In this document: in pieces, positions 58,519-64,000 of the stretch | Numbering within the stretch: position 1 is the stretch's first letter | How the letters are laid out: each line of letters starts with the position of its first letter | Assembly (NCBI GenBank): GCA_010027845.1 | Contig: RGUL01000001.1 | Coordinates: 1-64,000 of the forward strand | Length of the DNA stretch: 64,000 nucleotides | Reading direction: 5' to 3' | Source: Gammaproteobacteria bacterium | Lineage (GTDB): Bacteria; Pseudomonadota; Gammaproteobacteria; Steroidobacterales; Steroidobacteraceae | Notes under the pieces: generated by a model | The model's input: the letters and a program-made list of their open reading frames with translations, nothing else | What the model was told of the DNA's origin: nothing | Database searches by the model: none | Program-made: the position numbers and the translations under genes

Positions 58519-59712
58519 TCAGGTCGGCGCGAGACCCAGCAAATGGGCGAGATCTTTGAAAAAGACGCGTACATGGGCGAGGGGCTGTGCGCGCACCAAT
58601 TTCTTGTGCATGTACGCCTGCCACGTCAGCCGCTGCACGTCCGGGTCCCGACACATTTTGACGAATCGCTCGCGCCGCGCGTCGTTGACGTACCAAAAAC
58701 GCTGTAGCAGGCCGAGCACCCAAAACACCCGACCGTGATCAGCGAGGAAGCGGCGACGCGCCGCGCGCAACGTCGCGGGATTGCCGGTATGCAAAAAATC
58801 GTCGAGCGCATCGGCACACATGCGCCCCGCGGCCATCGCGTAATAAATGCCTTCGCCCGAGGCCGGCGCCACGACGCCCGCCGCATCGCCCGTCACCAAC
58901 ACGTCACGGCCATCGTCCCAGCGCCGACGCGGTCGCAGCGGAATCGGCGCGCCCTCTCGGCGCAGCACTTCCATACCCTCCAGCCCTGAGGCGCGACGCA
59001 AGGCAGTCACGGCGTTACGAATCGAGAAGCCGCGACGCGCCGTGCCGGCACCCGCGCTGATGGTCTCACCGTGCGGAAAAATCCACGCGTAGAAATCCGG
59101 CGACAACTCACCACGGTAGTACACGTCGCACCGCGCACCGTCGTATCCGGCTTGCAACCCTTGCGGCGCACGGAGGATTTCGTGATACGCATACACGAAC
59201 GGTACGTCGTCTTTGCTCGACAGACACTGCCGTGCAACTTCGGAGCGCGCACCGTCGGCGCCGAGCACCGCGCGCGCACGCACGCTGCGCACCGCCCCAC
59301 CCTCATCGTGCGCTTCGAAATGTACGATCGCCTCATCCTCGGCATCGCGCGACAAGCGGATGAAGTTGCCGTTACAACGCGTCGCACCGCCCTGCTGCGC
59401 ACGCTCGCGCAACCATTCGTCGAATACCTCACGATCGACCATGCCGACGAAGCCACCGTCGATCGGCATGTCGACGGCGCGATCGCTCGGCGAAATCATG
59501 CGTGCCGAAGAAATCTTGGCGACCAGCAAATGATCGGGAATCGCGAACTCTTCGATCAAGCGTGGCGGAATAGCGCCGCCGCAAGGCTTGATACGACCGG
59601 CGCGATCGAGCAACAACACGCTCCAACCTTTGCGCGCAAGATCGTCAGCAGCCGTGGCCCCCGAAGGCCCACCGCCGACTACCACGACATCGTATTGATC
59701 GGTGAGTCGCAC
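58519..59712 (-). CDS. bchP: Geranylgeranyl reductase (bacteriochlorophyll tail reduction)
   Basis: A 397-residue flavoprotein that reduces the geranylgeranyl tail of bacteriochlorophyll a to phytyl. Start GTG (VRLTDQYDVVVVGGGPSGATAADDLARKGWSVLLLDR), containing the dinucleotide-binding GGGPSG. Further: IKPCGGAIPPRLIEEF, GADGARSEVAR, YAWIFPHGETISAGAG and VTGDAAGVVAPASGEGIYYAMAAGRM, all characteristic of BchP/ChlP. It lies 21 nt after lhaA. Confidence 0.95.
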   Translation of the reverse strand: MRLTDQYDVVVVGGGPSGATAADDLARKGWSVLLLDRAGRIKPCGGAIPPRLIEEFAIPDHLLVAKISSARMISPSDRAVDMPIDGGFVGMVDREVFDEWLRERAQQGGATRCNGNFIRLSRDAEDEAIVHFEAHDEGGAVRSVRARAVLGADGARSEVARQCLSSKDDVPFVYAYHEILRAPQGLQAGYDGARCDVYYRGELSPDFYAWIFPHGETISAGAGTARRGFSIRNAVTALRRASGLEGMEVLRREGAPIPLRPRRRWDDGRDVLVTGDAAGVVAPASGEGIYYAMAAGRMCADALDDFLHTGNPATLRAARRRFLADHGRVFWVLGLLQRFWYVNDARRERFVKMCRDPDVQRLTWQAYMHKKLVRAQPLAHVRVFFKDLAHLLGLAPT

Positions 59713-59733: not shown

Positions 59734-61055
59734 TCAGGCCGCGTAAGCCGGAACGTCGCCGTCGTCGTCGGAACCCGATTCGAGTTGCGACAGACGCACG
59801 GCAAACACGGTGGCGAGCACGAATAACAGCGCTTCGCCGACGAACACCAAACCGTACGCAATGGGCACCGAACCGAATAAGGCGCGACCCAAATCAACGG
59901 CTGCGGTCGACAGAATTCCGCCCAACCCGAACGCAACCGCCTGTGCGGCACCCCACAAACCCATGCGCATTCCTTCGCGCTCGCCGCGCCCGCGACCGAC
60001 CAAGCCCATCATCGAACCGATCGCAGCGACGGCGTAGGCGCCGTTCGCAAGGCCGAGTGCGAACACCACCGGCTTCAATAAATTGGCGGGATGCAAAAAT
60101 CCGATGACGGCGAGTGTCACCAAGGCGAACGCCGAGGCGATGCAACCGAACAAGGTCCACACTCGCAACGAACCGATGCGGGCGGTCGCGCGATTGGTGC
60201 AAAGAATCGCCACCACGAACATACCGAGCAACACGCCGGAGTTTTGCGTACCGGAGAGTTGTGTCGTTTGACCGGGTGTCAGACCGAATATGGCACCGGC
60301 GAAAGGCTCTAAGATCAAATCTTGTGCGCTGTACGCGAGCATCGACACGAAGATGAAACTCGTCAGGCGTCGTGAATGCGGCTCCGCCCACACTTCGCGT
60401 AACGCCGCGCGAAAATCTTGTTGCGCGTGTTCGGCCGTCGCGATGCCCTGTTCCGCCGCATTCGACGGCATCGCTTCGTGCCGTGATTCGACGCCCCAAC
60501 TGGCCAATAGCGTGACACCCAGAGCCGCGATGGCGATGCCCGCGGTCGTTGCGATCAGGCGCGGCAAAGAAAACGGATCGAGCAGACGCCCCGCGATCAC
60601 GCTCGTGACGATGAAGCCCGCAATCATCATCAACCAAGTCACCGTCGCCGCAGCCGCCAGACGCGGCGACGCAATAGAGCCGTGCCCGCCGCACCCACAC
60701 CGAAGCCGATGACGACGAACGCCAGTACCGCGAGTGCGACACCCAACCAAAGATTCGACACCATCAGCATGGTCGCGGTCGATGCGAGCACGCCGCCCAA
60801 ACCCAAAACGGCGACACCGCCGATGATCCACGGCGTGCGCCGACCGCCGAGATCGGAGCTGTAACCGAATCGAGGACGCACGACTTGGACGAAATAATGC
60901 AGCGCAACCAATAAGCCCGGCAGAATCGCCGGCAGCGCGAGCTCGACGACGATCACGCGGTTGAGCGTGGAGGTGGTGATCACGACCAGCGAGCCGATCG
61001 CCGCTTGTACGAGTCCGAGCCTCAAGATCCCCAGCCAACCGAGCGTGCGGTTCAT
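59734..61055 (-). pseudogene. lhaA: LhaA/PucC-family light-harvesting assembly protein, split by frameshift
   Basis: An MFS-like membrane protein (BCD family) that helps build light-harvesting complexes. The N-terminal part is in frame 60639-61055 (MNRTLGWLGILRLGLVQAAIGSLVVITTSTLNRVIVVELALPAILPGLLVALHYFVQVVRPRFGYSSD) and breaks after GVGAAGTALL; the rest is in frame 59734-60680 (AAAATVTWLMMIAGFIVTSVIAG...). Family members have about a dozen residues between these blocks; here only about 14 nt remain, so 20-25 nt seem lost. The break lies in a perfect 9-bp inverted repeat. Real lesion or assembly error. Confidence 0.88.
60643..60671. repeat. Perfect 9-bp inverted repeat at the lhaA break
   Basis: CGTCGCCGC (60643-60651) and GCGGCGACG (60663-60671) flank an 11-nt loop exactly where lhaA changes frame. 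A strong GC hairpin could cause deletion during replication, amplification or assembly. Confidence 0.8.
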
Positions 61056-61975
61056 ACGATCACCTGCGCGGAGAGATAAAAACTACGCACCGCCAGCGCA
61101 CTGACCAACATGCCGAGCACATACAGCGGCACGCCGACCGCGTTGTACCAAACATCACGCTCGACGGGACGTGCGAGAAAGCGTCGCATCAATACGAACT
61201 GCGCCAATAACAACGCCGTGATCACCGCGGCGTGTACGGGTCGATCCCACTCGATCAGTAGCGCGATCACGGCGACTTGCGCCACAGACATCACGACGCA
61301 GGCGAGTAAGCCGGCGCGCTCGATGCCGAGTTGCACCGGTAACGACGCGACACCCATGCGACGATCGCCCTGCACGGACTTGAAATCGTTGAGCGTCATG
61401 ATGCCGTGCGCTCCGAAACTGTAGAGCGCAGCGAGCGCGAGTAAGCGCAGATCCGGTGCCGCACCGGTCATAACCAACACCGCGGTGATCCACGGCAAAC
61501 CTTCGTACGCGAGCGCCACGGCCGAGTTGCCGAGCCAGCCGTTACGTTTCAAGCGCAACGGCGGTGCGCTATACGCCCACGCGAGCGCGAGTCCGATCGC
61601 CGCCGCGCCAAACACCCAAATGCCGAGCGCGTAGGCGAGCAACAACGACACGCCGGTCCACCAGACTGCGATGTAAAGACCCCAACGACCGGGCATACGG
61701 CCCGAGGGAATCGGTCGCTGTGGTTCGTTGATGGCGTCGACGTGGCGATCGAACCAATCGTTGGCTGCTTGGCTGGTGCCGCAAACCATCGGCCCGGCGA
61801 GAATCAATCCGAGCACGATGAAGGGCCAATGACCGGCCGGATCGACACCACTCGAAACGATGCCGCACAGAAACGCCCACATGGGCGGAAACCACGTGAC
61901 GGGCTTCAAAAGCTCCAGCATCGCCGGCCAAGCGGGACGCCGCTGGATCACTAGGCCGTATGCCGGGCGTGCCAT
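61052..61975 (-). CDS. bchG: Bacteriochlorophyll synthase (esterification of bacteriochlorophyllide)
   Basis: A 307-residue UbiA-type prenyltransferase with about nine helices that attaches the isoprenoid tail. The prenyl-diphosphate motif is SQAANDWFDRHVDAINEPQRPIPSGRMPGRWGLY; the second Asp-rich loop is LNDFKSVQGDRRMGV. The core starts at LELLKPVTWFPPMWAFLCG; ATG 61975 adds about 19 residues before an internal Met, and either could be used. ATGA overlap with lhaA. Confidence 0.95.
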   Translation of the reverse strand: MARPAYGLVIQRRPAWPAMLELLKPVTWFPPMWAFLCGIVSSGVDPAGHWPFIVLGLILAGPMVCGTSQAANDWFDRHVDAINEPQRPIPSGRMPGRWGLYIAVWWTGVSLLLAYALGIWVFGAAAIGLALAWAYSAPPLRLKRNGWLGNSAVALAYEGLPWITAVLVMTGAAPDLRLLALAALYSFGAHGIMTLNDFKSVQGDRRMGVASLPVQLGIERAGLLACVVMSVAQVAVIALLIEWDRPVHAAVITALLLAQFVLMRRFLARPVERDVWYNAVGVPLYVLGMLVSALAVRSFYLSAQVIV

Positions 61976-61981
61976 GGACCG

Positions 61982-62010
61982 AAAATATCCATGACACCTT
62001 GATATGTCAA
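61982..62010 (-). promoter_or_regulatory. Sigma70-type promoter for bchG
   Basis: On the minus strand TTGACA (62010-62005), a 17-nt spacer, and TATTTT (61987-61982). The start point would fall at or within a few bases of the annotated ATG, suggesting a very short leader or use of the downstream Met. Confidence 0.7.
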
Positions 62011-62022
62011 TTTAAGTTTACA
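62005..62022. promoter_or_regulatory. PpsR/CrtJ operator TGT-N12-ACA
   Basis: TGTCAATTTAAGTTTACA matches the TGT-N12-ACA consensus exactly. It overlaps the -35 hexamer of the bchG promoter and lies 9 nt after the ppsR stop. An extra TGACA at 61992-61996 forms TGACA-N8-TGTCA with it. Confidence 0.85.
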
Positions 62023-62031
62023 AAGGCGCCG

Positions 62032-63498
62032 TCAGCGGCGTCGACTACCCTTACCGCGACCCTTGGGCGGCACCACCTCGAGCTCTTCGTCCCCGGCTTC
62101 GAGGTCGCCCAGGCCGTGACGCCGCAACTTTACGTACAGCGACTGACGCGACAATCCCAGCATTTCGGCCGCGGAGGCGCGATTGTCGCGCGTCAGTTCG
62201 AGTGCCGCCTCGATGCACAGCCGCTCGATCACATCGGTGGTCTCGCGCACCAATTCCTTCAAAGAAACCCGGCCGACGAGTTCGGTCAACTGCTCGACCG
62301 AGCGCGGCAGTTCGCGCGCGTTGCGCGCCTCACCCGCCGAACTGCGCCGCCGTTCGACGTTGCGGATCGCAAAACCGATACCCGTTTCACCACGCTCGGG
62401 GAGCGACACCGCCGAAATTTCCACCTCGGCCTGCGAGCCGTACTCGCCGCGCAACGAGGTGGCGAACATGCGCACGCTGCCGTGCTGCCGCAGGTTCGCC
62501 ACGAGCACACCGAGATCGACGCCGGGGCGTCCGAGCCAGCGATCGAGCGACTCGTTGCGCACCAAGTCTTCGGTCGCGATCTGCACCAAGTCGAGGAACG
62601 CACGATTCGCGGTTTGGATCCGTCCGTCGGCGTCGGTCACCACTAGTCCGTCCGGTAAACGCTGGAACACGTCGGCCAAACGCGCACCGCTCGAGCGCGC
62701 ATCGACGGCGATTGCGGCACCGAGCGGCGCCATGCGCACCAAAATGTTGGAAACGTTTTCCTGCCTGAACAACACGCCGACGAGCACGCATTCACGCTGA
62801 CGATCCGCGAGTCGCACCCGCAATTCTTCGGCGCGGCCCGCGGTCCGCAGTACCGACATCCAATCACCGACCAGCCGCGCACCGCTTGCATCGAAACTCT
62901 CGGCAAAACTGCGGCCGACGAGTTTGCGCGACGCATCGCCCAATAATTTCGCCGCCGCCGGATTCGCTTCCACTATTTTTTGGGTTGCGGCATCGACGAT
63001 CAGCACCGCTTCCGTGACCGACTGCAACAACAAGCGATAACGCGTTTCGGCAACCCGCAGCCGCGAGTAGTCGCGCTCCAGCGATTGTTCCGCCTCGACC
63101 AATCGTTGTTGCAACGCAGCGACGGCGCGTAAATCGCGGCCTGCGGCCAAAAATCGACCGGTGCCGTCAAGTTTGCGCAATGTATACGTGACCGGCACGG
63201 TTCCACCGGCCGCCAACGGATGATTCAACTGTCGCGCGCGCGCCGCGGGATTTTCCGCCTCGGAATACAACAATTCGATTTTCGGCACGCTCTCGCTCGT
63301 GACCGCTTCGCGCCACGACTTGCCGACCATACCGGCGCCGATTTCGCCGGCGAGCGTCTCACTACCGAAGGCCGCGTCGCGCACGACTCCCTTGGCATCG
63401 AGCACGAGCGCGACGTCGGTGGATGCTGTGATGAGGCTGGACACCGTCTCGGCATCGAGTCCGGTGAGGGCCTTCCTTGGCGCCTTGAATGATTTCAC
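62032..63498 (-). CDS. ppsR: Photosynthesis repressor PpsR/CrtJ (PAS-PAS-HTH)
   Basis: A 488-residue repressor of photosynthesis genes. Start GTG. PAS-type domains lie at about residues 20-125, 150-265 and 275-385 (e.g. LLLQSVTEAVLIVDAATQKIVEANPAAAKLLG; LPDGLVVTDADGRIQTANRAFLDLV); a Q-linker helix joins the first two. The Fis-type HTH is near 428-462 (AALELTRDNRASAAEMLGLSRQSLYVKLRRHGL). There are only two cysteines, C237 and C428, placed like the redox pair of PpsR. Lies 13 nt after aerR. Confidence 0.94.
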   Translation of the reverse strand: MKSFKAPRKALTGLDAETVSSLITASTDVALVLDAKGVVRDAAFGSETLAGEIGAGMVGKSWREAVTSESVPKIELLYSEAENPAARARQLNHPLAAGGTVPVTYTLRKLDGTGRFLAAGRDLRAVAALQQRLVEAEQSLERDYSRLRVAETRYRLLLQSVTEAVLIVDAATQKIVEANPAAAKLLGDASRKLVGRSFAESFDASGARLVGDWMSVLRTAGRAEELRVRLADRQRECVLVGVLFRQENVSNILVRMAPLGAAIAVDARSSGARLADVFQRLPDGLVVTDADGRIQTANRAFLDLVQIATEDLVRNESLDRWLGRPGVDLGVLVANLRQHGSVRMFATSLRGEYGSQAEVEISAVSLPERGETGIGFAIRNVERRRSSAGEARNARELPRSVEQLTELVGRVSLKELVRETTDVIERLCIEAALELTRDNRASAAEMLGLSRQSLYVKLRRHGLGDLEAGDEELEVVPPKGRGKGSRRR

Positions 63499-63511: not shown

Positions 63512-64000
63512 TCAGTTCCGTTGACCGAGCAACTGCAGCAAACGTTCGGCTTGAAGGACGGCATCGCGACCATCGGAAGCGGTGGTGTCGGCACCGACCA
63601 TCGCGACCCGTTCCGGATGCGCCGAGAACGGATTGCCGCCGACCATAACGCCGATTCTGCGATTCGACGACGCCCGACGTAGGGCGCGAACGAACCCGGC
63701 CAAAGATTCCAACTGGTCGGGCCGACTGATCGATACGCCTACGATCGCAAACCATTCGTGCTCGACGAGCGAGAGTATATCCGCTTCGTTCGCACCCGGC
63801 GCATCCCAAACATCCCATCCCGCACGACGCAAAAAATCGGCGACCATCATCGAACCGAAAACGTGTTGATCGCCAGGCATCGCAAGCAATAAAACTCGAT
63901 GCCCCGAGCGCGGCGCATCGGCCGGCTGCGCACTCGACTGACTCAATTGGTAGGCCAACTCTTGCAGGCGCTGCAGTCCGACCGTGACCGCGACGAAGTC
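63512..64000 (-). CDS. aerR: B12-binding antirepressor AerR/PpaA, truncated by window edge
   Basis: The frame stays open to the window edge, reading DFVAVTVGLQRLQELAYQLS before the track start (which is an internal TTG). The C-terminal cobalamin-binding (SCHIC/B12-type) domain is visible: HRVLLLAMPGDQHVFGSMMVADFLRRAGWDVWDAPG with the E/D-x-H-x-x-G cobalt His motif, and VGVSISRPDQLESL. AerR relieves PpsR/CrtJ repression in a B12- and light-dependent way. About 163 residues are seen; the start is outside. Confidence 0.92.
   Translation of the reverse strand, partial: DFVAVTVGLQRLQELAYQLSQSSAQPADAPRSGHRVLLLAMPGDQHVFGSMMVADFLRRAGWDVWDAPGANEADILSLVEHEWFAIVGVSISRPDQLESLAGFVRALRRASSNRRIGVMVGGNPFSAHPERVAMVGADTTASDGRDAVLQAERLLQLLGQRN

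Follow-up and report, generated by a model that had tools for sequence, protein, structure and literature searches.

A predicted PpsR-repressed promoter 6 nt before the bchG start codon of a gammaproteobacterial phototroph, and its conservation in relatives

The binding of PpsR (CrtJ) to photosynthesis promoters has been described for several purple bacteria. At bchC of R. capsulatus two CrtJ palindromes were footprinted at positions −47 to −30 and −21 to −4 (PMC5362033). Tandem PpsR sites 7–8 nt apart over sigma-70 promoters have been described as typical, and 12 of the 15 PpsR sites predicted in Congregibacter litoralis are in tandem at this distance (PMC2654016). For pucB and crtI of Rubrivivax gelatinosus the tandem sites lie 8 or 9 bp apart and degenerate half-sites are bound as well, with redox-dependent binding requiring the 9-bp spacing and none seen at 8-bp sites (PMC4452267). 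The genes considered here are concerned in R. sphaeroides, where PpsR ChIP-seq yielded a peak at bchG-pucC-bchP with the motif TGTAAGGATAGATTGACACT, an enrichment of 7.8 and an expression change of −8.03 (PMC4344238, Table 2).

We analyzed a stretch of 64,000 nucleotides (the window) in which bchG is followed by lhaA and bchP and preceded by ppsR and an aerR-like gene (Table 1). The encoded cognate PpsR is a clear member of its family according to domain searches, and its two cysteines are C237 and C428, of which C428 lies within the DNA-binding region. There are 56 nt between ppsR and bchG. Upstream of bchG the minus strand reads, in this order, TGTAAACTTAAATTGACA (62022–62005), TATCAAGG, TGTCATGGATATTTTCGG (61996–61979), TCC and the start codon ATG (61975). 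It contains the core promoter TTGACA-N17-TATTTT, with a spacer of 17 nt and the −10 box 6 nt before the ATG, and a TGT-N12-ACA palindrome (62005–62022) which overlaps this promoter at the −35 box and is separated from the ppsR stop codon (62034–62032) by 9 nt. The promoter, the palindrome on its −35 box and the nearby stop codon had all been pointed out in the initial annotation of this DNA, and all were found in the sequence.

Table 1. Genes and predicted regulatory elements of the bchG region in window coordinates.
Feature	Position	Strand	Remarks
bchP, geranylgeranyl reductase	58519..59712	−	TIGR02023 520.2 bits
lhaA/pucC-like gene	59734..61055	−	PF03209; ATG overlaps bchG stop
bchG, (bacterio)chlorophyll synthase	61052..61975	−	TIGR01476 355.9 bits, NF005742 424.5 bits
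Predicted transcription start (A of bchG ATG)	61975	−	suggested by the conserved 6–7 nt gap between −10 box and start in 68/71 loci
Would-be second palindrome TGTCATGGATATTTTCGG	61996–61979	−	left arm is TGTCA; right arm not conserved
−10 box TATTTT	61982..61987	−	
Lower PpsR half-site TGTCA (predicted)	61992..61996	−	8 bp past the upper palindrome
−35 box TTGACA	62005..62010	−	entirely inside the right end of the upper operator
Upper PpsR operator TGT-N12-ACA, TGTAAACTTAAATTGACA (predicted)	62005..62022	−	at −47 to −30 relative to the +1 predicted here
ppsR/crtJ	62032..63498	−	TIGR02040 equivalog 513.1 bits, cut-off 275.4
aerR-like gene, B12-binding domain	63512..64000, continuing past the window end	−	PF02310; ORF reaches contig C1:64492

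If the A of the ATG is taken as +1, the operator sites would be located at −47 to −30 and −21 to −4, the same coordinates as those of the CrtJ palindromes at bchC of R. capsulatus. As in bchC of R. capsulatus (PMC5362033), the upper site lies over the −35 box and the lower one over the −10 box of a sigma-70-type promoter, with 8 bp between them. At bchG, however, the lower palindrome is reduced to its left arm, and the start codon is located directly at the predicted +1, while that of bchC follows after a leader. The R. sphaeroides operon (PMC4344238) has the same genes in the same order, is repressed by PpsR, and its motif closely resembles TGTAAACTTAAATTGACA. PpsR control is already established there; for the present genome it is predicted. 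Congregibacter litoralis (PMC2654016) is likewise a gammaproteobacterial phototroph, with sites that are predictions only and with bchG absent from the main text. Compared to Rubrivivax gelatinosus (PMC4452267), the spacing of the sites at bchG is 8.

A second complete TGT-N12-ACA palindrome at a distance of 7–9 bp, which is typical though not universal, is absent at bchG, where the right arm reads CGG and not ACA. Judged by its sequence, the bchG operator is a half-palindrome variant rather than the canonical pair. The single palindrome assumed at the outset was thus correct with regard to the upper site and incomplete with regard to the lower one, as it missed the conserved TGTCA half-site (61996–61992) towards the −10 box. 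Around this half-site and again around the start codon (GTCATGGCTATTTTnnnGTCATGGCACG) we also noticed a direct repeat of GTCATGGC (window 61996–61968), which is kept in much of the genus and is imperfect in the window.

The reading frame of lhaA is broken at about 60675 (window 60675–60676) by a 22-nt deletion relative to locus L001, which is either a real loss or an assembly error. In the puf/bchZ region (contig C1:72128–76410, locus L032) ORFs also appear truncated or frame-shifted, and BchZ is matched at profile positions 1–310 of 468 only, hinting at an error-prone assembly.

The TGT-N12-ACA motif by itself is uninformative, and each element alone occurs close to chance. In the window the motif was counted 10 times compared to 5.8 (sd 2.3) expected. 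Genome-wide it is not enriched, with 228 occurrences compared to 236 of a reversed control pattern, and such enrichment was dropped as evidence. One promoter-like site was seen in the 4 kb scanned compared to 0.9 expected. The last two counts would be in keeping with a chance motif beside a chance promoter-like sequence. For comparison, we assembled 107 distinct regions upstream of bchG, which stem from gamma-, beta- and alphaproteobacteria and were collected as ppsR neighbours on named genome contigs and as bchG matches from searches at family, order, class and phylum level. TTGAC-N16-18-TAnnnT occurs within 200 nt in 71 of these 107 upstream regions, whereas Markov-shuffled controls yielded a mean of 0.3. 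The comparative conservation therefore places the observation well beyond chance, and a coincidence, already refuted by this conservation (full layout in 68 of 107), can practically be dismissed.

In 68 of the 71 promoter-bearing loci the end of the −10 box is followed by an in-frame start codon after 6 nt (57 loci) or 7 nt (11 loci). This start codon is almost always ATG, and the promoter spacer is 17 (58 loci) or 18 nt (10 loci). In the culturable Blastochloris sulfoviridis (L021) the unit reads TTGACG-N17-TAGTGT, with 7 nt to the start. If only a TAnnnT near the start was required, it was found 6 or 7 nt upstream in 80 of the 107 regions, 63 of them at 6 nt, and at other distances far less often. 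Within the genome-search set, 14 of 21 families and 24 of 42 genera have members with the full layout; with the loci included that have only the spacing of −10 box and ATG these numbers become 16 families and 32 genera. Depending on the test, the layout is missing in 27 to 39 of the 107 loci. In such promoter-less relatives bchG often abuts ppsR, or ppsR is not located upstream, and at some of the abutting loci bchG may depend on read-through.

Among the 68 loci with full layout, 58 retain TGT at the upper half-site and 43 have ACA as the triplet of its right arm, so that the bases on whose conservation in relatives the initial annotation had staked its reading are indeed widely retained. Exactly 8 bp downstream of the upper palindrome a TGT follows in 48 of the 68 loci (as TGTCA in 47), and the ACA of the lower right arm is present in only four. 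R. sphaeroides itself, whose bchG is RSP_0279, is not among the compared loci. Family f236 (L115–L127, probably Rhodobacteraceae) differs in the placement of the sites: TTGCCG is found at the −35 position, a full lower palindrome extends across the −10 box, and the upper site lies further upstream. The distance of 6–7 nt to the ATG is common to this family and the other loci, and the family was counted for this spacing only. Taken together with the R. sphaeroides operon, the conservation argues for the earlier proposal that, within an aerR-ppsR-bchG string, a PpsR operator overlaps the −35 box of a bchG promoter, which is of the sigma-70 type.

Two further observations concern the collected loci. 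A second, distant ppsR paralogue (29–36% identity) is located a few kb downstream of ppsR-bchG in L015, L016, L020, L024 and L028. The ppsR loci of L006, L009, L019 and L029 are of the proteobacterial phototroph type, but the records of their contigs bear the titles Klebsiella pneumoniae, Anaerolineae or Verrucomicrobiales, which are probably wrong.

A hint towards the translation of bchG arises from the comparison to bchC. In the same genome bchC has the same tandem operator with N8 (TGTTAATTACAGTTGACA-N8-CGTAAGGGTAGACTGACA), followed by 30 nt from the −10 box to the ATG. Its promoter spacer is 16 nt, as in all 30 bchC upstream regions of the family, compared to 17 nt at bchG. The bchC start, assignable in 29 of these 30, lies 22–66 nt further downstream and is in most cases preceded by a strong Shine-Dalgarno sequence. 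Within this one family the median distance from −10 box to start is 6 nt for bchG and 32 nt for bchC, and the mean Shine-Dalgarno energy is −1.9 compared to −6.7 kcal/mol (p = 8e-8, uncorrected for relatedness). An energy of −4.4 kcal/mol or lower was reached by 24 of 29 bchC loci; no Shine-Dalgarno sequence at this threshold was found before bchG, neither here nor in the 29 bchG loci of the family. The operator geometry is thus common to bchG and bchC, but the leader is not.

A first Shine-Dalgarno comparison among the bchG loci seemed significant and was rejected, as the best of several starts had been taken for the non-promoter loci only. The fair comparison of promoter-type and other bchG loci shows no significant difference (p = 0.14 or 0.43), and we restrict the Shine-Dalgarno evidence to the contrast of bchG and bchC. 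With this contrast and the 6–7 nt gap in 68 of 71 loci, the message suspected early on to be “almost leaderless” is strongly supported, as far as sequences can tell. A conserved leaderless bchG mRNA would be the best reading of these sequences. The wider statement that alpha-, beta- and gammaproteobacteria share a conserved operator-promoter-AUG unit, from which the bchG of purple bacteria is expressed without a leader, appears to us somewhat better founded than its opposite. No description of a leaderless bchG was found in searches of open-access papers, and an earlier mapping of its start may exist elsewhere.

For the present locus we propose, with considerable confidence, a sigma-70-type promoter of the bchG-lhaA-bchP operon which would be repressed by PpsR through occlusion and whose transcript would very probably start at the A of the bchG ATG. 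One might instead assume the same repressed promoter with a start several nucleotides upstream of the ATG or inside it, in which case the mRNA would carry a very short leader or begin internally, and strictly speaking would not be leaderless. Sigma-70 starts do scatter by a few nucleotides, and the gap is 7 instead of 6 nt in 11 of 68 loci, but the 6–7 nt spacing and the near-invariant ATG are kept in 14 families, and a start further upstream would land on the −10 box. The internal methionine (LELLKPVTW), brought up initially as a possible start, is not conserved: many relatives lack it (TLELLKP, AVLELLKP) while the distance from the −10 box to the first ATG stays at 6–7 nt, for which reason an internal start at this residue was rejected. 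A displaced start as a whole seems to us unlikely.

Even less probable, in our estimation, is that bchG is expressed mainly by read-through from aerR-ppsR with translation coupled to ppsR, the local promoter being minor. The 56 nt between the two genes would allow for this, and several promoter-less relatives have bchG abutting ppsR, among them L067 and L068, where an AGGAGG-like site is present. However, bchG of the present genome lacks a Shine-Dalgarno sequence, and an idle local promoter would not need to be conserved to this extent. In L006, L007 and L027, moreover, the ppsR stop codon falls within the operator and the −35 box, which ties the operator-promoter unit to bchG and not to ppsR.

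The favored reading, a PpsR-repressed promoter with its start at the ATG, leads to the following model. PpsR, encoded just upstream, would occlude the bchG-lhaA-bchP promoter, with a first dimer on the full palindrome covering the −35 box. A second dimer, probably held cooperatively at the half-site 8 bp downstream, could extend over the −10 box, and bound PpsR would thereby exclude RNA polymerase. We further expect this repression to be modulated by AerR and the redox state. Once the promoter fires, transcription would very probably proceed from the A of the ATG and yield a leaderless bchG-lhaA-bchP mRNA.

Similar sequences were noticed elsewhere on the contig. At crtC (C1:82927–82944, locus L033) a TGT-N12-ACA (TGTCATGCAGAATAGACA) spans the predicted start codon, and a possible −10 box TAGGTT lies just 3 nt ahead of the ATG. 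The divergent intergenic region of aerR and bchF (C1:64500–64580, L032) contains overlapping degenerate PpsR-like sites, and TTGACA-N18-TAGATT is located 7 nt ahead of a TTG, the start codon of bchF being uncertain.

With regard to regulation, the results would extend the PpsR control of bchG known from R. sphaeroides to uncultured Gammaproteobacteria. This part is already known, and the less expected part is the short bchG leader. The strict conservation of a predicted zero-length leader, beside bchC promoters that have the same operators, ordinary leaders and Shine-Dalgarno sequences, suggests that the chlorophyll synthase operon has been selected for leaderless translation. Leaderless mRNAs can be favored under starvation or stress. 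If the proposed reading is true, bacteriochlorophyll synthesis would, in its last step, depend on a mode of translation initiation unlike that of co-regulated neighbours such as bchC, and bchG might be translationally distinct under these conditions.
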